Made by a program: the position numbers and the translations under genes
Part shown: positions 4,383 through 26,322 of the stretch, one piece after another
Layout of the letters: each line of letters begins with the position of its first letter
Position numbering within the stretch: position 1 is the stretch's first letter
Notes under the pieces: generated by a model
Told to the model about the DNA's origin: nothing
Seen by the model: the letters and a program-made list of their open reading frames with translations, nothing else
Databases searched by the model: none
NCBI GenBank assembly: GCA_937934745.1
Contig: CALGZC010000039.1
Coordinates: forward strand, 1 to 33,122
DNA length: 33,122 nt
Direction of reading: 5' to 3'
Origin: an uncultured Blastocatellia bacterium
Lineage (GTDB): Bacteria; Acidobacteriota; Blastocatellia; Chloracidobacteriales; Chloracidobacteriaceae

Positions 4383-4469
4383 ATGACCTGTTGCTGCCCG
4401 GTGTGCGGGTTTCGGAGACAGCGCCGGAGAGCCTACCGGGGAGCGTATTTGATTGGGAGAAATTTTTCG

Positions 4470-5630
4470 GTGAAAGCAAAACAATGGTTGACGACGCTCG
4501 GCGGAGCGGCACTGGCCGGCGGGGTTGCCTGGCAGTATCTCAAGCGTCCCCGTGATGTGCGGTGGATTGACTGCGTTGGGGAGCTACCGCACCCGGATGC
4601 GAGTCGGTTTACGGTTGTGGACGGGGTTCGTCTGCACTACCAAGAGTTTGGTGCGCCGAACGCCCCGGCACTGGTGCTGCTGCATGGGTATTGCTCCTCT
4701 AGCTACACGTGGAAAGATGTTGCCGAGCCGCTGGCAACTGCCGGCTACCGCGTCATTGCACCCGATTTGAAGGGCTTTGGCTTCTCGGAGAAGCCGGCTG
4801 ACCGGCGTTACCACGTTCAAGACCATGCACAGCTTGTGATCGGTCTGCTCGACCGATTGGGGATTGAGGCGCCAACCCTGGTGGGGAACTCGTTTGGCGG
4901 TGCTGTCGCCCTGTCCTGCGCCCTGATGTGGTCGACGCGCGTCTCTGCCCTCGTGTTGATCGATGCGGCGTACAATGACGCGCCCCTGCAGCAGTACCCG
5001 TTTAGTCTCTACGCCCGAATCGCCCGGACGTGGTTGGTGGGTGAAACCGCCGTGCCGTTACTGATGGCAACACGCCGGACTGCGGAAACCCTGCTGCGTG
5101 GCTTTTTCCATGACCAGCAAGTGGTGACGCCGGACCGGGTTGCAGCGTATTTTCGGCCGCTACGGACGGTTGAGGGACAGCGGGCAGCACTGACGACGGC
5201 TCGCCAGTGGGACCTCAACTGGATTGAACAAGAGCTGGATGGCGTGACTGTTCCAACGCTGATCATTTGGGGTGAGTATGACCGCTCAATCCCGGTCGCG
5301 TTGGGGGTGCGGTTGCGCGCCCGCCTGGCGCACGCTGAGTTTGTCGTTATCCCTGACTGCGGCCACATTCCTGAGGAAGAGCGTCCCGAAGAAACCACGG
5401 CGCTGATTGTGGATTTTTGCCGGCGACGCCTGGCACGCGCGCCGGCATCTCTGACGACCTCGACGGCAGGGACGTCACCACCGGCCGTGGCAGTGGCCAC
5501 GGTTGTCAAGCCCGAGGCAACTGCCGTGGCCGATGTAACGGCGACTACAGATGCATCTGGTGTGCCAGCCGCGGCTATGACAGATGCGGCCGAGGCGCCA
5601 CCGGCGACTGTCCCGAGTGTACTAAACTAA
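4470..5630 (+). CDS. Alpha/beta-hydrolase fold protein, probably membrane-anchored
   Basis: Starting at GTG 4470 (GGGAGA 10 nt upstream), the product has 386 residues. A hydrophobic N-terminus (LTTLGGAALAGGVAWQYL) could act as a signal anchor. The hydrolase core shows the oxyanion region LLHGYCSSSYTW, nucleophile elbow GNSFGG (Ser141), acid WGEYDRS (Asp271) and histidine DCGHIPEEE (His299), so the triad is complete. Such enzymes cleave esters, epoxides, haloalkanes or C-C bonds; the substrate cannot be read from sequence. The last ~55 residues are a low-complexity Ala/Thr/Val tail. Open reading continues upstream to 4383, but the Cys/Arg-rich stretch there is unlike a protein start. A possible promoter lies at 4354-4382. 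Confidence 0.88.
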   Translation: MKAKQWLTTLGGAALAGGVAWQYLKRPRDVRWIDCVGELPHPDASRFTVVDGVRLHYQEFGAPNAPALVLLHGYCSSSYTWKDVAEPLATAGYRVIAPDLKGFGFSEKPADRRYHVQDHAQLVIGLLDRLGIEAPTLVGNSFGGAVALSCALMWSTRVSALVLIDAAYNDAPLQQYPFSLYARIARTWLVGETAVPLLMATRRTAETLLRGFFHDQQVVTPDRVAAYFRPLRTVEGQRAALTTARQWDLNWIEQELDGVTVPTLIIWGEYDRSIPVALGVRLRARLAHAEFVVIPDCGHIPEEERPEETTALIVDFCRRRLARAPASLTTSTAGTSPPAVAVATVVKPEATAVADVTATTDASGVPAAAMTDAAEAPPATVPSVLN

Positions 5631-7665: not shown

Positions 7666-8928
7666 ATGAGTTACTTTGACTTGCCACCGATCATTGAACG
7701 CATGCTGGCGGTGGATGAGAAGATTAGCGACTTGAATTTTTCGGTCGGTCGTCCGCCGCAAGTGGAACTCAACGGCAAGCTCGTGCCAGTGGACATCAAG
7801 GGACTCCGTAACCTGACGCCCTACCAGACCGAGATCATCGCCATGGCTTTGATGGCGGGGAACAGTGACGCAGCAGAGAAGTTGGTGCAGACCGGGTCGG
7901 TGGACTTATCTTACAGCTTACCCTCACGGACACGCTTCCGCGTCAACATTTTTTCGCAGCGCGGTACGTACTCGATCGTGATGCGCGTCATCCCTACCGA
8001 AGTGCCCACCATTGAGTCGTTGGGGTTGCCGCCACAACTTGGCGAGATCTCGAATCTCAAAAACGGCATCGTCCTTGTAACCGGACCAACTGGAAGCGGC
8101 AAGTCCTCCACCCTGGCGGCCATCTTGCGGAAGATCAACGAAGAGAAGTTCTACCACATCGTCACCATTGAGGACCCAATTGAGTTCCTCCACACACACA
8201 AGAACTGCACCATTAATCAGCGTGAATTGGGAAGCGATACGCCGAGTTTTGCGTTGGCCCTGCGTGCCGCACTGCGGCAAGCCCCCAAAGTCATCCTCGT
8301 GGGCGAAATGCGTGACTTAGAAACGACGGAAATTGCGCTGGAAGCCGCCGAAACAGGACACTTGGTGTTTTCGACCCTACATACAACAGATGCGTCAAAG
8401 ACGGTGGACCGCATTATCGGTATTTTCCCAAAGAATGAGGAGCACGTTATTCGAGTCCGGTTGGCACAGGCATTTCGTTACATTATCAGCCAGCGCTTAA
8501 TTCCACGCGCCGACGGCAAGGGACGGGTTGCGGCCGTTGAGATTCTCAAGTCCACACCACGCACCCGTGAGTACATTGAGAAGGGTGAGAGTGAGGGCAA
8601 ATCCCTATTGGACGCCATGGAAGATGGTTCACTGGATGGAATGCAACATTTCGACCAGGTCATCGAGCGGATGATCCGCCAGGGCATCATTACCCAAGAA
8701 GACGGCGTCGCCTTTGCAACCAACCAGAACAACCTGTTGTTGCGGCTGTCAGGACTTGGCTCATCGAGCGACTTTGCCGGTGCCGGAGGCAGTGAGATTC
8801 ACCGCATGCAGAAAGAACAACAGGCTCTGCGTAATCCAACGCTGGGCGGCATGCGCCCGGTTGCCCCGCCGGTGCGGACGACAATGGAGACACCACGGCC
8901 CTCGATGCTGGATATCATTGAGCGTTGA
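7666..8928 (+). CDS. pilT: PilT/PilU-type pilus retraction ATPase
   Basis: The 420-residue product is a full GspE/PilT secretion ATPase of the retraction subfamily. It shows Walker A GPTGSGKSS (140-148), the Asp box VTIEDPIEF, Walker B ILVGEMRD (210-217) with the AALRQAPKVILVGE context, and the His box FSTLHTTDA. Length, lack of an N-terminal extension and lack of a zinc finger fit PilT or PilU rather than PilB. It powers depolymerisation of type IV pili for twitching from the cytoplasmic face of the inner membrane. No other pil gene is in the window. GGGGGAT about 10 nt upstream of ATG 7666 is a good ribosome site. The extended C-terminus (HRMQKEQQALRNP onward) is variable in the family. Confidence 0.95.
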   Translation: MSYFDLPPIIERMLAVDEKISDLNFSVGRPPQVELNGKLVPVDIKGLRNLTPYQTEIIAMALMAGNSDAAEKLVQTGSVDLSYSLPSRTRFRVNIFSQRGTYSIVMRVIPTEVPTIESLGLPPQLGEISNLKNGIVLVTGPTGSGKSSTLAAILRKINEEKFYHIVTIEDPIEFLHTHKNCTINQRELGSDTPSFALALRAALRQAPKVILVGEMRDLETTEIALEAAETGHLVFSTLHTTDASKTVDRIIGIFPKNEEHVIRVRLAQAFRYIISQRLIPRADGKGRVAAVEILKSTPRTREYIEKGESEGKSLLDAMEDGSLDGMQHFDQVIERMIRQGIITQEDGVAFATNQNNLLLRLSGLGSSSDFAGAGGSEIHRMQKEQQALRNPTLGGMRPVAPPVRTTMETPRPSMLDIIER

Positions 8929-8972
8929 TCACCTTCTGGTGGTGACAACCAAGGGGTTGTTGTGCGGACGTT

Positions 8973-9656
8973 ATGCAGGTTGTTTGTACACAATGCCGCG
9001 CAAAATTTGACATCCAGGAAAAAAACCTACCCGAGAAGCCCTTTCAGGTGAACTGCCCGAAGTGTCGCTTTGAGCTGACAGTCAAACCGCCCCCAAAAGC
9101 GACACCGGCATTGCGAGGAGCACCTAAGCGTATGCAAGTCAATCAGGATGTCCTTGCTCAACTGGCTGCCCTGTTAACCGGACAACTGCGCGCCGCCGAC
9201 GGCCAGGGAATTCCACTGGCAAGTTGGGAGCGCCGCCAAACCCTGATCTGTTTATCCGATCAGAGGCAGGTTCAGCAGGTACTGGAAAAGCTTGACCATA
9301 ACATCTATGCGCCGACAGTCTGTGAGGAAGCGGCAAAGGCCATTGAACTCATGCGCGATACGCGCGTGGATATGATTCTGCTCGATCCACAGTTTGACAG
9401 CCCAAATCAGGGCGGCATCGCCGTTTTGCGACATGTCAACTCGCTGCCGCCTAAGTACCGGCGGCGCACATACTTGGTGTTGCTCTCCCCGCAGGTCAAA
9501 ACCCTTGACACCTACATGGCGTTTCTCAACGGCGTCAACCTAACCATCAACACGGCTGACATTGAGACCATCAATCAGGTTCTGGAACGCAGCATTCGTG
9601 ATTTCAACGAGTTGTATCAAAACTACAATGCCGCGGCCGGCCTCAAACCGTTTTAA
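8973..9656 (+). CDS. Zinc-ribbon (MJ0042-type) plus receiver-like domain protein
   Basis: The 227-residue protein opens with a zinc ribbon, VVCTQCRAKFDI then VNCPKCRFEL (two CxxC pairs), matching the MJ0042 motif common in Acidobacteriota, Myxococcota and other deltaproteobacterial lineages. After a Pro/Lys linker, residues ~85-215 look like a response-regulator fold (LICLSDQRQV as strand 1, ILLDPQFDS as strand 3 with a possible acceptor Asp, YLVLLSP as strand 4). The acidic pair of strand 1 and the conserved lysine are missing, so phosphorylation is doubtful. It starts 44 bp after pilT on the same strand and is probably co-transcribed, which suggests a role in motility control (inference). 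Confidence 0.85.
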   Translation: MQVVCTQCRAKFDIQEKNLPEKPFQVNCPKCRFELTVKPPPKATPALRGAPKRMQVNQDVLAQLAALLTGQLRAADGQGIPLASWERRQTLICLSDQRQVQQVLEKLDHNIYAPTVCEEAAKAIELMRDTRVDMILLDPQFDSPNQGGIAVLRHVNSLPPKYRRRTYLVLLSPQVKTLDTYMAFLNGVNLTINTADIETINQVLERSIRDFNELYQNYNAAAGLKPF

Positions 9657-9729
9657 AGTCCGGTGTGTCGTGGGTCGCTCAGCCGAGCTACAACAGGGTG
9701 ACGTTGGGAAGGCAATGCAGAGGGGCGGA

Positions 9730-10200
9730 ATGTATCGAGGCGTGTTAGTGTCTATGCGGCAGACAACAGCACTGGTGATCGTGTTGTCGTTGGTCACGCT
9801 GGGTAGCGTCAACGCTGCCGCCCCGACGCAGCTTCGGTTTCGCGATTTAGACGGTGTACAAGTCAACGGCCGCGAGGTGATTTTCCCCCCACGAGCGCAG
9901 CAGCTCAACGGGAAGCAGGTTGAGATCAACGGCTTCATGGTGCCGCTCGGCATTGGAGACGGCAAGATTCGGCGCTTCATTCTCATTGAGGTGCCCCTGG
10001 CCTGTTGTTTCGGCGATGGCCCGGGCATTGAGCAGATGATTTTCGTCACCCTGGCACCTGGACACGAGTTAAGTGCTGCGAGCGACTATCCGGTGACCGT
10101 CAGTGGCACATTTCAAGTCGGTGTCCAACGGCGTGAAAGCGGCGCTGTGGAAAGCCTCTACCGGATTGTGAACGCACGCGCACGCAAGTTGGTGCCGTGA
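9730..10200 (+). CDS. Exported DUF3299-like protein
   Basis: From ATG 9730 (GAGG six bases upstream) the product is 156 residues; ATG 9715 and ATG 9754 are alternatives. A hydrophobic stretch TALVIVLSLVTLGSVNAAA is a clear signal peptide, so the protein is periplasmic. The core LNGKQVEINGFMVPL, then FILIEVPLACCFGDGPGIEQ, resembles DUF3299 proteins, in which a short beta domain carries a cysteine-containing segment. The adjacent Cys-Cys pair might bind metal or form a disulfide. DUF3299 proteins often sit near metal transport genes; here the neighbours are motility-type genes. It is the last plus-strand gene before a convergent junction. Confidence 0.75.
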   Translation: MYRGVLVSMRQTTALVIVLSLVTLGSVNAAAPTQLRFRDLDGVQVNGREVIFPPRAQQLNGKQVEINGFMVPLGIGDGKIRRFILIEVPLACCFGDGPGIEQMIFVTLAPGHELSAASDYPVTVSGTFQVGVQRRESGAVESLYRIVNARARKLVP

Positions 10201-14648: not shown

Positions 14649-16859
14649 TCAAAGCCCCTTCGCGATGAACTTGACACGTCCGTTGTCAACCGAAACTGAG
14701 AATGAGATGTGGGTGCACTTTAGCTGGTTTTTGATTCTGGCCGATTGATCGCACAGGATGCGCTGAAACCGTGCAAAGGTAAAATCCTGAAGCGACTCTC
14801 CACATTGCCGTTTGGCGGCGACAACAGCTTCATAGAGCTGTTTGGCAAGTTCTTCCTCCGTTGCAGGATCCGAAAAAGTGACCCGGTATTCACCCTGAAA
14901 GATCGGCGGTGACGGGTCGGGTGGAGTCGCCGGCGGCAATGTGGCGGGGGCTGTGAGAGGGGAACCGAAATCGTAGGCCGGCGGAGGCGAGGTCACCGGC
15001 GGCGGAGTCCCATAGGATTCAGCTGGAACATAAGGTGGTACATAGCCTGGCGGCCCATAGGTCGGCTGCGTCGGCGGCAGGCCATACCCACTTGGAGGAT
15101 AGGCCGGGTGAGATGGTTGTGGCGGATAAGACGGCGCCGGAGCAGGGTATGGCGCTTGGGGGGGCAATGGCGGCAACGGTGCACTCCCCCCCGGCGGATA
15201 ATGGCCCCCGCCGTAGGTCTGCTGTCCAGGGTAGGTTTGTCCCGGTGGGTACTGCAAAGGCCCAGTTGCCGGATGCATCGGTAGTGACGGCGCGGTCGGC
15301 ATAGCCATTGGGCTCAGCGCCGGTGCACTGGGCGGCGACAGGGGTGTGATCGGCGGCGGTGCAAGGGGCGGTGCCGGCGCAACCGGCTCGTGTCTCCTTG
15401 ACGACCAGAGGATGCTGAACATCCGCAGCAGATCAATGTCGTGGTGCGCCTGTTGCAAACATTGACCAACCGTATGTTTGCCGTCTAAAAGCGCCATGGT
15501 GCGGCGTACCTTCTCCGGCGGAAAGCTGGCAAACCATGAGACATCAAAACCGGGTGGTGGCACTGCCAGCGTGCTGGGCGGCGGTAATGAGGCAATCAGG
15601 CTCTGCTCTTCGTCATAGCGATGCATCGCCTCCAGAATCAGCTCTGCTGCCCGAAGATTAATGACATTCGGACGCGTCACCGGTTGCTGGGTAAACACAT
15701 AGCTTCCTTCCGACCAATGCACCAGGTGGATAATGGCGGCAATGCCGGTAAGGGAACCACTTTCCGCGTCAACAGCGGCGCCATCCTTGAAGTAAATCGT
15801 GCCGGTTTCCTGGCTCGGCGTGACAATCTTGATAACGCCTTCCTTACGCTCCCGCTCCATCTGGTTCAGGAGGTCGGTCACGCTGGTGTGCGACAATTGT
15901 CCGCTGATTCGCGCCACTGCCGGTTGGCGCTTGAGGATGCGCTTGACCTTGAGCGGAATCTCCCGAACGCTAAACGGCTTGGCCCAGTAGTCCTCAACAC
16001 CGAGTTCGAGCGCCGAGACTTTTTCGTCCTCCTGGGCGCGAGAAGAGAGGCACACAAACGGAATTTTGGCTAGATTCGGGTCGTCCTGCAGGGCGGCGAA
16101 AAGCTGGCTGCCGTCCATCTTGGGCATCATGAGGTCGGAAATAATCAGCGCCGGGGTATGCTGCTTGATAACATTGAGGGCCTCCAACCCATTGTTGGCC
16201 GTCATGATCTGACAGCCCAGTGGCTTGATGATTTTCTCTAGAATCATCAGTACATGTGGCTCGTCGTCCACCAACAACACCATTCGGTCGGAGAAGTCAT
16301 CCTGATCCTTTGGCAACCGTCCGCTATTTTCCTCTGTGACCCAGGTGGCTTTTGCCCCCTGCATCCACTTTTCGCTGCGCTCCTGAATCATCTCGCGCAG
16401 CTCTTTGCGGTAGTCGGCGTCTCTTTCCCCAAAGCCGGGCAGCATTTTGAGGAACCCCATCGCCGCTTCCGGTTGTTGCTCGCCGAGGTACAGACTGATC
16501 ACCTGCCGGCAGTACTCATAAGCCCGGTCAAACTGCCGCGTTTCAAAGTAGATGTTGACAATGTTCTTGAGGATAGTGGCCCGTTGGGCAGGCTCGACCA
16601 GGCGCTCAACCTTGCGGTAAAACACCAGCGCCAGCTCGTACTGCTTACCGGTGCGATAAACATCCGCCAGCCGCAGGAAGTGGCTGATAGCAGCTTCCAA
16701 GTTGCCACTTTCCTGATACGCCTCAGCCAAGCGCTTGAGCACGTCCACATTGTTGGGATTATTGCGAAGGGTGGCCGAGAGCTGCTCAATCTCACGAGCG
16801 AGTTTCAGCTGATCAAGTTGGTTGGCGACTTGTCGGCGGACGTTTTTGAAGAGTTCCAT
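14649..16859 (-). CDS. TPR - receiver - DUF4388 (PatA-like) response regulator
   Basis: The 736-residue protein has an unusual order of parts. TPR-like helices occupy residues ~25-165. A complete receiver spans ~192-310 (Asp198-Asp199, acceptor Asp242 in ISDLMMPKMDG, Ser272, Lys294). A DUF4388/PatA N-terminal-like domain follows at ~318-420 (ISGQLSHTSVTDLLNQMERE), then a helical part to ~490. A Pro/Gly/Tyr-rich stretch fills ~492-655, and a conserved ~75-residue C-terminal domain (TEEELAKQLYEAVVAAKR onward) resembles a domain seen in myxobacterial regulators. DUF4388 regulators are linked to motility and development in myxobacteria and cyanobacteria. The pilT group elsewhere in the window would fit, but a direct link is inference. 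No DNA-binding domain is present. Confidence 0.9.
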   Translation of the reverse strand: MELFKNVRRQVANQLDQLKLAREIEQLSATLRNNPNNVDVLKRLAEAYQESGNLEAAISHFLRLADVYRTGKQYELALVFYRKVERLVEPAQRATILKNIVNIYFETRQFDRAYEYCRQVISLYLGEQQPEAAMGFLKMLPGFGERDADYRKELREMIQERSEKWMQGAKATWVTEENSGRLPKDQDDFSDRMVLLVDDEPHVLMILEKIIKPLGCQIMTANNGLEALNVIKQHTPALIISDLMMPKMDGSQLFAALQDDPNLAKIPFVCLSSRAQEDEKVSALELGVEDYWAKPFSVREIPLKVKRILKRQPAVARISGQLSHTSVTDLLNQMERERKEGVIKIVTPSQETGTIYFKDGAAVDAESGSLTGIAAIIHLVHWSEGSYVFTQQPVTRPNVINLRAAELILEAMHRYDEEQSLIASLPPPSTLAVPPPGFDVSWFASFPPEKVRRTMALLDGKHTVGQCLQQAHHDIDLLRMFSILWSSRRHEPVAPAPPLAPPPITPLSPPSAPALSPMAMPTAPSLPMHPATGPLQYPPGQTYPGQQTYGGGHYPPGGSAPLPPLPPQAPYPAPAPSYPPQPSHPAYPPSGYGLPPTQPTYGPPGYVPPYVPAESYGTPPPVTSPPPAYDFGSPLTAPATLPPATPPDPSPPIFQGEYRVTFSDPATEEELAKQLYEAVVAAKRQCGESLQDFTFARFQRILCDQSARIKNQLKCTHISFSVSVDNGRVKFIAKGL

Positions 16860-23041: not shown

Positions 23042-24430
23042 TCACGTCTCCGTATGTGACCCTGACACACCGGCAGACCGGCACTCCGGCGTGCGGCTCA
23101 GAATGTGAAAGCGGGCCAGGAACAGTCCGGCAGCCAGAGCAAGGCCTGCGACATAGCCCATCCAAATGCCGGCCTCACGCCAGCCGAGGGGAAACGCCAG
23201 CACGTAGCTTGTCGGCAGGGCAACCCCCAGGTAGGCAATACCGGCCAGCACCGTCGGGGTGGCAGCATCGGTCAGGGCGCGCAAGGCGGCAAGCATCACG
23301 ACCTGCAACCCGTCCACGAGCTGGAAGGCGGCTGCAAACAATAGGAGCTTGGCGGCTTTGCCGATCACTGCCGAATCTCCGGTGTAGAGCAGCGGCAGCG
23401 CCGAGTGCAGTGCCAGGATCACCAGTGCCGTCAAGCCCATGTACGCTAGGACGACATGGGCTCCGGCAAATCCGGCCGCCCGCATGGCCGCCGGTTGCCT
23501 AGCGCCAAGGTAGTAGCTCACGCGAATGGTTGTTGCTGCGGCAATCCCGGAAGCTCCCATAAATGTGAAGGATGCGATGCCGATGGCAATCTGGTGGGCA
23601 GCCTGTTCAATCTCGCCCAACCACCCCATCATCAATGCTCCGGCGGCGAAAGCACCGACTTCGAGCACGAACTGTCCGCCCAGTGGCAGCCCAAGCCTGA
23701 AGTACTCTCCGGTAACAGCACGACTCCAGGGCACGGTGCGCAGTGCCGCCCGATAAGGCGCAAAGAACTGCAACTTGATGAAAAAACCTGCGAAGGCCAG
23801 CGGCAGAGCAAGCCTAACCAGCAGCGTTGCCAGCCCTGCGCCGACAAGCCCTAATCGGGGACAGCCCCAGTGCCCGAAGATCAGCACATAGTTTAGAACG
23901 ATATTGAGCAGCACTTCCAAGACGGTGATGGCGGCAGCAATCCGCGTGTTGCCAAGACCTTCGGTAAACTGCCGAAATGTCTGGAACACAATGACCGGCA
24001 CGAGAGAGGCGACCAGGCACAGGTAATAGTTGCTGGCTGCCGCCGCTACCGTCGGAGTTTGCCCCATGCGGTTGAGCCAGGGGTAAAGTGCCAAGAGCAA
24101 CAGCGTCACCAGTAAAGCAATGGTCAAATTGACGGCTGCGCCATGTTTGAGCCACCGTACTGCGGCAAGAACATCCTGCGCACCGCGGGCTGCGCCGACC
24201 GGCGGCGTCAGGGCGAGGGTAACGCCAACCGAGAACACCAGCCCGACGGTGAACACACTCTGCGCAAAAGATGACGCTGCCAGCGCCGTCGTGTCGTAGT
24301 GACCTAGCATGATGCTGTCCGTCATCTGTACGATGAGATGGCCCATCTGCGCGAACATGATCGGGAGGGCCAGCCTGATATGCGCCACGTAGTGGGTCGG
24401 TGGGCGGTGAAGGTAGGCGTTTGCCGACAT
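23042..24430 (-). CDS. MATE-family multidrug/sodium antiporter (NorM-like)
   Basis: The product is a 12-helix inner-membrane protein of about 462 residues. The family start IRLALPIMFAQMGHLIVQMTDSIMLGHYD and the second-half counterpart YFRLGLPLGGQFVLEVGAFAAGALMMGWLG are clear, as is the repeated two-bundle layout. MATE proteins export cationic drugs or metabolites against Na+ or H+ gradients. ATG 24430 (MSANAYLHRPPTHY) is chosen over TTG 24481 because residues before it do not resemble family starts; neither has a clear ribosome site. The gene lies about 125 bp downstream of the PuhE-GTPase fusion on the same strand, so the two may be co-transcribed. Its substrate is unknown. Confidence 0.93.
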   Translation of the reverse strand: MSANAYLHRPPTHYVAHIRLALPIMFAQMGHLIVQMTDSIMLGHYDTTALAASSFAQSVFTVGLVFSVGVTLALTPPVGAARGAQDVLAAVRWLKHGAAVNLTIALLVTLLLLALYPWLNRMGQTPTVAAAASNYYLCLVASLVPVIVFQTFRQFTEGLGNTRIAAAITVLEVLLNIVLNYVLIFGHWGCPRLGLVGAGLATLLVRLALPLAFAGFFIKLQFFAPYRAALRTVPWSRAVTGEYFRLGLPLGGQFVLEVGAFAAGALMMGWLGEIEQAAHQIAIGIASFTFMGASGIAAATTIRVSYYLGARQPAAMRAAGFAGAHVVLAYMGLTALVILALHSALPLLYTGDSAVIGKAAKLLLFAAAFQLVDGLQVVMLAALRALTDAATPTVLAGIAYLGVALPTSYVLAFPLGWREAGIWMGYVAGLALAAGLFLARFHILSRTPECRSAGVSGSHTET

Positions 24431-24555: not shown

Positions 24556-26322
24556 CTAACCGACCGTTGGAGAAAGATAGCGGCGTACTCCGGTCGGAGC
24601 CACCACTGCGGAAACGTCTGCCGGAGCGGATGTGATGGCTGCCGCTCGAACGGCCGTCATGAGAAGAGTTGGGGCCAGCGCCTGACCAATGACAACCAGC
24701 GAGCTTTCCTGTGCCGGTCCGCAGGGATTGAGGCTGAAGGATTGCCCGGCATACTCCAGACGCAACCAGCCGCCGGCTGTTTTGAAAACGCCTTTGGCAC
24801 GGGCAACCGTCCCAAAATGCCCCGCTGCGATAGACTCAAAAACACGTTGGAGTGCTACGGTGTCGAAGACCGAGGTAAAAGTTTCCGCACATTGCTCAAA
24901 GCTTATGCGTGGTGCAAGGGTATCACCCAGGCAGGCATCCTCCTGGGTGTCGCTGAGGTCGCGCAGACTAATTCGCCCAAAGCTCGTGTGGATGACACTG
25001 GCCGTTGCATTACGGCTGGCGATCCAAGCATCAATACATGCCAACTCCGCCTGCGACAGCCCGTCACACTTATTGACGACAACCGTGGCCGCCGCCTCAA
25101 CGTAGGCTTCAATGGCCGCCCGGATCGCTTTGTCGGCCGTCAGCCACTGCTTGCCGTCCACTACTGCCACAACGCGAATCGTCCCCAGCAATTCCCGGCA
25201 TCCAGGCTGATGCAGGGTGCCCAGCAGGTCGCTAAGGGCCGCTGCCCCCGATGGCTCAATCAAAATCCGTGCCGGCGCGTAATCGCGGATCAGACGCGCC
25301 AGCGTCGCGGCGACATTACGGGAGAGCGTACAGCAGAAGCACCCCCCGGCCATCTCAACCACCGGTGTCGCGTCGTCACCGCCGCTGCCGTCCCGGAGCT
25401 GCACCCCGTCCAGCCCCACATCGGCGAACTCGTTCACCAACACAATGGTTTTCGAGTCGAGTTGGGGCATCAGGTTGCGCAGTAGGGTAGTTTTGCCTGA
25501 GCCGAGAAAGCCGCCGATGACATCTACGGTCGGCTTGACTTCAGGTCGGTTGCGCGAAAGCAAACCCCAGGCCCAGACACCGACCGGCTGGGGCAGGATG
25601 AGCCACCAGTGTTCGAGAATAGCCAGTGCCATCAGCGTACACGCCAAGCTGTTGGCCGCGACCGCGAATGCGTCGGTCGCATGTAACGCCCGGTAGAACA
25701 GCCAGTGTGCGACGGCCGTCGAAATCGTCACCGAAAAAGGGAAGAACCAGTTGATGGGGCGCTTGGAGAAAAACTGCGTCATCTGCCGCAGGTGCTCCGG
25801 TAGATACTCTTCGTTGAGGTTGCGCACCCCGAAAAACACGTTCAATTTGGCGGATTGGTGCATCCACCAGTGAATGAGAAAGGTCCACAGGGCAACTCGG
25901 TTTGGCCCTGGCGTAGCCATCCAGACCAGGGCAAAGCCGATGAAGATGGAAAGTTCGTGGAAGAGATTGGCCTTGACGCCGTGTACGAAGTGTCGCCATC
26001 CACCGCAATCGGGCGGGCAAGGTGGTATGTCCAAGCCGACGACGTAGCCCGTGTAGTAACTGGTTTCAAACCAGCCCCACGCAACAATTCCTAGGAGAAA
26101 CCCGGCGACAGCACCCAGCGGCGTTGTGATTTGACTAACACTGGGCATAAGCGCCAACGCCCCCAGAGCCAACCCCGAAGACGTCACCAGCACCGTCCGG
26201 TGCCAGCGCTGACGACCACAGGCAAAGATGATGGCCACGGTTGCCACCCACCAGACAGCAACGGCAAACAAAGGAAGCCCAAGCCAGAGCAACCACGAAC
26301 TTTGGAAACGCAGATCAGGCAT
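24556..26322 (-). CDS. Fusion of PuhE (photosynthetic complex assembly protein 2, DUF3623) with a CobW/COG0523 G3E GTPase
   Basis: From ATG 26322 the product has 588 residues. Residues ~5-255 form a multi-helix membrane domain with the PuhE pattern: FAVAVWWVATVAIIF, VAWGWFETSYYTGYVVG, PCPPDCGGWRHF and the strong signature AKLNVFFGVRNLNEEYLPEH (158-177). After a linker of under 20 residues comes a full G3E GTPase: Walker A GFLGSGKTT (271-279), switch VLVNEFADVGLDG, metal motif Cys328-Phe-Cys330-Cys331 (GGCFCCT), IEPSG (355-359), VVAVVDGKQWL, NKCD (417-420) and a CobW C-terminal domain (GHFGTVARAKGVFKTAGGWL). PuhE is known from purple-bacterial photosynthesis clusters, where it affects bacteriochlorophyll supply and complex assembly. 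COG0523 GTPases handle zinc, cobalt or other metals. TTG 26385 would add 21 residues with no family match. Confidence 0.9.
   Translation of the reverse strand: MPDLRFQSSWLLWLGLPLFAVAVWWVATVAIIFACGRQRWHRTVLVTSSGLALGALALMPSVSQITTPLGAVAGFLLGIVAWGWFETSYYTGYVVGLDIPPCPPDCGGWRHFVHGVKANLFHELSIFIGFALVWMATPGPNRVALWTFLIHWWMHQSAKLNVFFGVRNLNEEYLPEHLRQMTQFFSKRPINWFFPFSVTISTAVAHWLFYRALHATDAFAVAANSLACTLMALAILEHWWLILPQPVGVWAWGLLSRNRPEVKPTVDVIGGFLGSGKTTLLRNLMPQLDSKTIVLVNEFADVGLDGVQLRDGSGGDDATPVVEMAGGCFCCTLSRNVAATLARLIRDYAPARILIEPSGAAALSDLLGTLHQPGCRELLGTIRVVAVVDGKQWLTADKAIRAAIEAYVEAAATVVVNKCDGLSQAELACIDAWIASRNATASVIHTSFGRISLRDLSDTQEDACLGDTLAPRISFEQCAETFTSVFDTVALQRVFESIAAGHFGTVARAKGVFKTAGGWLRLEYAGQSFSLNPCGPAQESSLVVIGQALAPTLLMTAVRAAAITSAPADVSAVVAPTGVRRYLSPTVG

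Follow-up and report, generated by a model that had tools for sequence, protein, structure and literature searches.

The special pair of the Chloracidobacterium reaction center is described as two molecules of Zn-bacteriochlorophyll a' (Zn-BChl a'), and the complex is said to be the sole known reaction center with a different metal in its special pair than in its antenna (PMC8245765, PMC9751088). Most of the chlorophylls of this genus carry magnesium, and a 2020 review called the way in which zinc replaces it unknown and especially perplexing (PMC7242693). For Acidiphilium, zinc insertion after magnesium loss has been proposed, and in a bchD mutant Zn-BChl is reported to form via ferrochelatase acting on protoporphyrin (PMC4944227, PMC5972617).

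PuhE is called a negative modulator of BChl production in the title of a cited reference, and its family, DUF3623, is described as a seven-helix family that does not have the TmAT fold and was taken out of the acyltransferase clan (PMC12423673). The COG0523 GTPases include CobW, a Co(II) chaperone for cobaltochelatase, the zinc metallochaperone ZigA, which carries a CxCC motif, and the stand-alone Escherichia coli protein YjiA. As a chaperone for a tetrapyrrole chelatase, CobW is the closest functional parallel to the protein reported here. We found no description of a PuhE-GTPase fusion in the open-licence PubMed Central literature on PuhE, DUF3623 and zinc bacteriochlorophyll, and no account of the PuhE mechanism in the open-licence articles.

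A PuhE-GTPase fusion in Chloracidobacterium

We analyzed a window of 33,122 nucleotides (the whole stretch of DNA considered here) from a genome of 3.29 Mb in 73 contigs. A preliminary description had claimed one continuous frame that joins a PuhE/DUF3623 domain to a complete G3E GTPase through a short linker, without naming a strand. Such a frame is present on the minus strand, with its ATG at 26322 and its stop ending at 24556 (Table 1). Residues 18-259 match DUF3623 (Pfam PF12291; E 8.8e-70, 235.3 bits against a cut-off of 27), so that the N-terminal assignment stands, and residues 17-254 match the PuhE model TIGR03055 of NCBIfam over positions 3-245 of 245 (211.4 bits; equivalog cut-off 164.05). 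The cobW-type Pfam match begins after an interval of 6 residues, and the segment KPTVDVIGG that follows is kept in all seven aligned orthologs. P-loop, CxCC and NKxD motifs are all present in the G domain, which places this half in COG0523/G3E; it scores below the cut-offs of all four COG0523-type NCBIfam models listed, with CobW (TIGR02475) as the best, weak match (91.5 of 332.1 bits) and ZigA (NF038288) at 73.2 of 600 bits. The C-terminal domain match scores 31.9 bits against a cut-off of 22. The novelty is the joining of two known families into one protein.

Table 1. Positions of the fusion gene, its domains and motifs, and the adjoining transporter gene in the window
Feature	Positions	Strand	Basis
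PuhE-COG0523 GTPase fusion gene, 588 aa	24556..26322	(-)	Open frame; profile matches; unbroken in 7/7 genus genomes
PuhE/DUF3623 domain, residues 18-259, seven predicted TM helices, predicted N-out/C-in	25546..26271	(-)	Pfam, NCBIfam, low-confidence model, loop charges
Glu86, possible polar site in membrane	26065..26067	(-)	Invariant in 14 PuhE
His122-Glu123	25954..25959	(-)	Invariant in 14 PuhE
Glu237-His238	25609..25614	(-)	Invariant in 14 PuhE
Stretch separating the two Pfam domains, residues 260-265	25528..25545	(-)	Pfam limits
G3E/COG0523 GTPase domain, residues 266-444	24991..25527	(-)	PF02492, E 7.9e-34; Foldseek best match YjiA 4ixm
P-loop GFLGSGKTT, residues 271-279	25486..25512	(-)	Translation, ortholog alignment
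CxCC metal-binding motif (by sequence), residues 328-331	25330..25341	(-)	Cys328/330/331 invariant in 7/7
Guanine-specificity motif NKCD, residues 417-420	25063..25074	(-)	Translation, ortholog alignment
CobW C-terminal domain, residues 481-560	24643..24882	(-)	PF07683, E 1.2e-7
MATE-family transporter, outside the fusion	23042..24424	(-)	Pfam/NCBIfam; directly downstream of the fusion, same strand, in 6/7 genus genomes, not G006

We searched 58 genomes, comprising the window genome and its relatives, and found the fusion at full length and free of stops in all seven Chloracidobacterium genomes, three of which are two-contig assemblies. The other six proteins are 76-81% identical to the window protein; of the remaining 51 genomes, 10 match the GTPase part only and 41 give no match. 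Two records named as Chloracidobacterium MAGs (79-80% identity) encode the same proteins as G002 and G003 along the final 550 residues; we did not count them separately, and the genus name used here rests on them. Mean omega over 21 pairs of the seven orthologs is 0.092 for PuhE and 0.102 for the G domain, 0.17 for both the linker and the CobW C-terminal domain, and 0.28 for the C-terminal tail (17 of the 21 pairs); both halves are under purifying selection. That the fusion is an assembly join or a frameshift artefact is refuted by the same joined frame in seven of seven genomes, and with the two halves and the junction under purifying selection this explanation has a negligible probability. 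Twelve pattern matches in viral contigs include no relative.

PuhE exceeds its family cut-off in four genomes of an even sample of 396 from the phylum and in seven of 162 from the class, all of them Chloracidobacterium; the survey covers the phylum sample and the class. A PF12291 match in G373 (21.1 bits; cut-off 27) was dropped, as it falls in the membrane part of a frame that reads like a sensor kinase.

The host had been described as a likely type I reaction center phototroph, and the window genome indeed encodes both a photosystem I-type core protein (PF00223) and the FMO protein (PF02327). In the seven genus genomes and in the fragmentary G008, which belongs to another genus of the same family, PF00223 is matched along part of its length at ∼30 bits (cut-off 23.3); FMO family proteins occur in the same eight genomes, as does AcsF (8/8). 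The acsF gene is reportedly absent from most C. aggregatum strains (PMC12816986). As also claimed before, PuhE lies outside a puh/bch cluster: no bch, puh or psc model is matched above its cut-off by any of the 20 window proteins scanned, and we found no photosynthesis gene directly flanking the fusion and no photosynthesis operon around it. IspG, a TPR protein and an ABC1-type kinase occupy one flank in all seven genus genomes, and the MATE gene may be co-transcribed with the fusion. The opposite flank is variable, with MnmG in the window and in G006, and in G002, G004 and G005 a hydrolase gene ∼90-260 bases upstream of the fusion, followed in G005 by ABC-transporter-type genes. We rejected this hydrolase as BchO, since it scores as a haloalkane-dehalogenase type (453-462 bits; cut-off 265) and reaches 39-45 of 172.55 bits with the BchO model. 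Neither Rfam matches at gathering scores nor a promoter and terminator content above that of shuffled sequences were found in the window.

Other genes in the window and in the neighboring genus may be recorded here. At positions 4383-5630, 19 kb from the fusion, lies an alpha/beta hydrolase gene whose product scores best in NCBIfam with BchO (129.7 bits, below the cut-off of 172.55), a family of hydrolases that takes its name from bacteriochlorophyll clusters. Positions 14649-16859 encode a 736-residue protein that combines a response regulator, DUF4388, TPR repeats and an MXAN_5187 C-terminal domain. G008 carries genes for a PscA-type protein, FMO and AcsF and a BchH/CobN-family fragment (C758/L062, C200/L101, C597); its PscA-type protein is 85% identical over 487 residues to that of the window genome. 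G008 may thus represent a second phototrophic genus near Chloracidobacterium, or contamination. PuhE was not found in G008, whose contig stops at the syntenic place; we judge this genome uninformative as a counter-example because its contig breaks off at the end of IspG, just before the expected place of the fusion region.

The PuhE half resembles its purple bacterial counterparts

PuhE had been characterized as a protein that normally stands alone in purple bacteria. This agrees with the nine purple puhE genes that we fetched from 11 plasmid matches, all of which encode separate proteins of 259-280 residues; a stand-alone gene in a puh operon is the setting of these purple genes and not part of the TIGR03055 definition. 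At the nine loci, acsF precedes puhE in seven and hemA follows in eight, with bchE following in Thiodictyon. The PuhE half of the fusion is 39% identical to Thiodictyon PuhE over 252 positions, covers the full-length domain above the equivalog cut-off and has seven predicted helices, as reported for DUF3623 (PMC12423673). Unlike the purple proteins, it is fused to a GTPase, is encoded outside a puh operon and belongs to a host with type I reaction center genes. An alignment of 14 PuhE sequences (five of the seven from the genus and the nine purple ones) contains 22 invariant residues, including, in predicted helices, Glu86, His122-Glu123, Ser157, Lys159 and Glu237-His238.

An AlphaFold model of the fusion, built from five sequences, has a mean pLDDT of 53.9, with values below 50 over most of the PuhE half and of 65-85 over much of the GTPase half. 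The low-confidence PuhE half shows seven long helices, followed by a helix (residues 245-256) that runs into the GTPase, and is too poor to place any site. A hydropathy scan recovers six of the seven model helices and gives two further peaks in the GTPase half. With loop limits taken from the low-confidence model, we count 66 lysine and arginine residues in the inner loops and 2 in the outer loops over the seven orthologs (95 and 11 with wider loops). This bias predicts a cytosolic location for the C terminus and with it for the GTPase.

At E values up to 10 the window PuhE matches no further Pfam entry, and a PDB sequence search with the PuhE half returned one match only (E 1.8). Single purple PuhE members give seven scattered weak Pfam matches (best E 0.00094), which we take as chance. 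We set aside the reading of DUF3623 as an acyltransferase, its placement in that Pfam clan having been withdrawn (PMC12423673).

The GTPase half and its metal

The G3E motifs named in the preliminary description are intact. Cys328, Cys330 and Cys331 are invariant across the seven orthologs, and P-loop and NKCD motifs are kept, with P-loop variants GAGKTT in one ortholog and GSGKTS in another. YjiA, which shares the CxCC motif, the G domain and the C-terminal domain with the fusion, is the best PDB match by sequence (E 5.8e-12), and its Zn(II)-bound structure 4ixm is the best Foldseek match of the model (E 1.0e-11, at 21% identity; the TM-scores, 0.27 and 0.47, are low). The genus-invariant residues His371 and Cys375 align with His114, which we take to be a metal ligand, and Cys118 of YjiA. 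In contrast, the fusion has a valine at the position of YjiA Glu37, which is among those altered in the triple mutant 4ixn.

Compared with three plasmid-borne CobW proteins, the fusion is devoid of two cysteines ahead of CxCC and of a histidine-rich stretch, and neither element was found in the alignment of the seven fusion orthologs. A histidine stretch is reported for all CobW proteins analyzed in one study (PMC2770081), and another describes a cysteine pair of CobW that its homologues lack, among them the Zn-preferring YeiR and YjiA (PMC7895991); in our own reading, this is the pair missing from the fusion. In a tree of 43 sequences, the fusion GTPases form one clade (98/98 support) outside CobW, ZigA and the paralogs of the genus, and join two Planctomycetes proteins, a placement that carries a long-branch warning. 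Under the same warning, the tree does not support the idea that the GTPase half arose from one of these paralogs.

Two stand-alone COG0523 types are present in all seven genus genomes. A further one is of ZigA type (639.5 bits against a cut-off of 600 in the window genome) and is whole in five genomes, in fragments in G006 and not found in G002. A stand-alone COG0523 GTPase gene lies 2.9-3.4 kb from acsF in seven of seven genomes (G000:C3, L099:5000-6226 and 8870-9925); we viewed two of these loci, and in both the two genes face opposite ways and are separated by others.

CbiC/CobH was found in none of eight genomes by a search that was positive in 7 of 14 known genomes as a control. All Chloracidobacterium strains are described as apparently unable to make vitamin B12 (PMC8245765), and C. 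validum is tabulated as not requiring it (PMC12816986). All seven genus genomes have two matches to the CobN/BchH family, and in the window genome one exceeds the BchH and the other the CobN cut-off. The genus has thus kept a CobN-type subunit in genomes in which CbiC/CobH was not found (G000:C68, L092:6754-10692). Five other genomes encode this CobN-type protein at 68-82% identity, and a contig-end fragment of it in G002 reaches 93%. The CobN-type gene adjoins one for a transporter-binding-protein-like product in G000, G003, G005 and G006, not in G004, and has an adenosyltransferase nearby in G000 and G005. The CobN-type protein is a candidate Zn or Mg chelatase or dechelatase.

The metal preference of the fusion GTPase cannot be read from its sequence alone. 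Zinc is likelier than cobalt, because the extra cysteine pair and the histidine stretch are missing and cobH/cbiC is found in 0/8 genomes.

A possible role in zinc delivery

The fusion may reasonably be read, as proposed before, as coupling metal handling to photosynthetic assembly; the connection with Zn-BChl a' was not part of that proposal. We infer that it binds GTP and a metal, with zinc as the metal and a pigment as the client. Given the gap in the zinc route to Zn-BChl a' in Chloracidobacterium, we propose the fusion for GTP-controlled delivery of Zn(II). The PuhE half would be the membrane anchor and, its C terminus being on the cytosolic side, would hold the GTPase at the inner membrane face. 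In its GTP-bound state, the GTPase would load a metal, most likely Zn(II), at CxCC, and GTP hydrolysis would release Zn(II) close to where PuhE acts on membrane enzymes or pigments. As client, the tetrapyrrole that becomes Zn-BChl a' would be the likeliest, at the stage of reaction center assembly.

We favor, tentatively and with limited confidence, a genus-specific, membrane-tethered zinc metallochaperone for bacteriochlorophyll and reaction center assembly, with Zn-BChl a' as its client. The presence of the fusion in seven of seven genomes, its restriction to the genus in the samples surveyed, purifying selection on its two halves, the kept motifs, the match to Zn(II)-bound YjiA with the aligned His371 and Cys375, the missing CobW elements, the absence of CbiC/CobH from the eight genomes searched, the predicted C-in topology and the Zn-BChl a' special pair of the genus argue for it. 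Against it stand the valine at the YjiA Glu37 position, the lack of an adjoining photosynthesis gene, G008 as a genome with no detected PuhE, though with a contig that stops at the syntenic place, and the routes by which Zn-BChl is reported to arise elsewhere (PMC4944227), for which no fusion is known. Zinc delivery need not depend on the fusion either, because the genus has other COG0523 proteins, including the ZigA type. The more specific scheme, in which a membrane-located chelation step receives Zn(II) from the fusion, the CobN-type protein being a possible chelatase, to yield Zn-BChl a' for the reaction center core, appears unlikely.

The strongest rivals are that PuhE itself is the client and that PuhE and such GTPases are partners in general. 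Fusion partners are often client or regulator of one another, and the GTPase could serve PuhE, either by loading a metal at Glu86, His122-Glu123 and Glu237-His238 or as a metal and GTP sensor that switches PuhE's control of BChl. The polar residues invariant in predicted membrane helices of five genus and nine purple sequences speak for such a function, as does the title that makes PuhE a negative modulator. However, all nine purple proteins fetched do without a GTPase, and a chaperone in cis is thus not generally needed; we regard a role on PuhE itself as doubtful, though still a serious possibility.

A second rival is that PuhE everywhere has a COG0523-type GTPase as its partner at some step of BChl synthesis, such as Mg-chelatase or cyclase, Chloracidobacterium having simply fused the two and the zinc pigment being incidental. 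It draws on the adjacency of purple puhE to acsF and hemA and on the COG0523 gene found near acsF in all seven Chloracidobacterium genomes. Yet no COG0523 gene is annotated near the nine purple puhE genes, within flanks that are short (4-6 kb for three, 0.8 kb for six) and gene tables that are incomplete; at the two loci viewed, the GTPase gene near acsF has the opposite orientation and is separated from it by other genes, and the GTPase of the fusion forms a separate, long-branched clade. We consider a general partnership rather unlikely.

A role in cobalt or cobalamin metabolism, as a CobW-like chaperone for the CobN-type protein or for BchE, is improbable. CobW is the best if weak NCBIfam match, the CobN-type gene occurs throughout the genus (as a fragment in G002), and bchE is called cobalamin-dependent (PMC12816986), but the fusion lacks the extra cysteine pair and the histidine stretch of CobW, scores below its cut-off and falls outside its clade, and CbiC/CobH was not found.

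Most improbable among the functional alternatives is a GTP-gated metal transporter with PuhE as the channel, for which the union of seven predicted membrane helices with a cytosolic GTPase resembles FeoB, which has its membrane domain and a G protein in one chain according to a reference title in PMC9164220; against it, the window PuhE shows no transporter similarity in the PDB sequence search or in Pfam, and the purple PuhE proteins compared carry no GTPase. The G domain of FeoB lies at the opposite end of the chain from that of the fusion and belongs to a different GTPase class.

Returning to zinc delivery, the fusion provides a testable, single, genus-wide candidate gene for the question of how Chloracidobacterium brings zinc instead of magnesium into its special-pair pigment. 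Because one gene joins both modules throughout the genus, a single deletion or motif mutation, followed by pigment analysis, would put this question to the test. The fusion further suggests a metal-linked function for PuhE and points to specific residues. If the scheme with a chelatase is right, the protein would be part of a machine that deliberately places a second metal in a chlorophyll.
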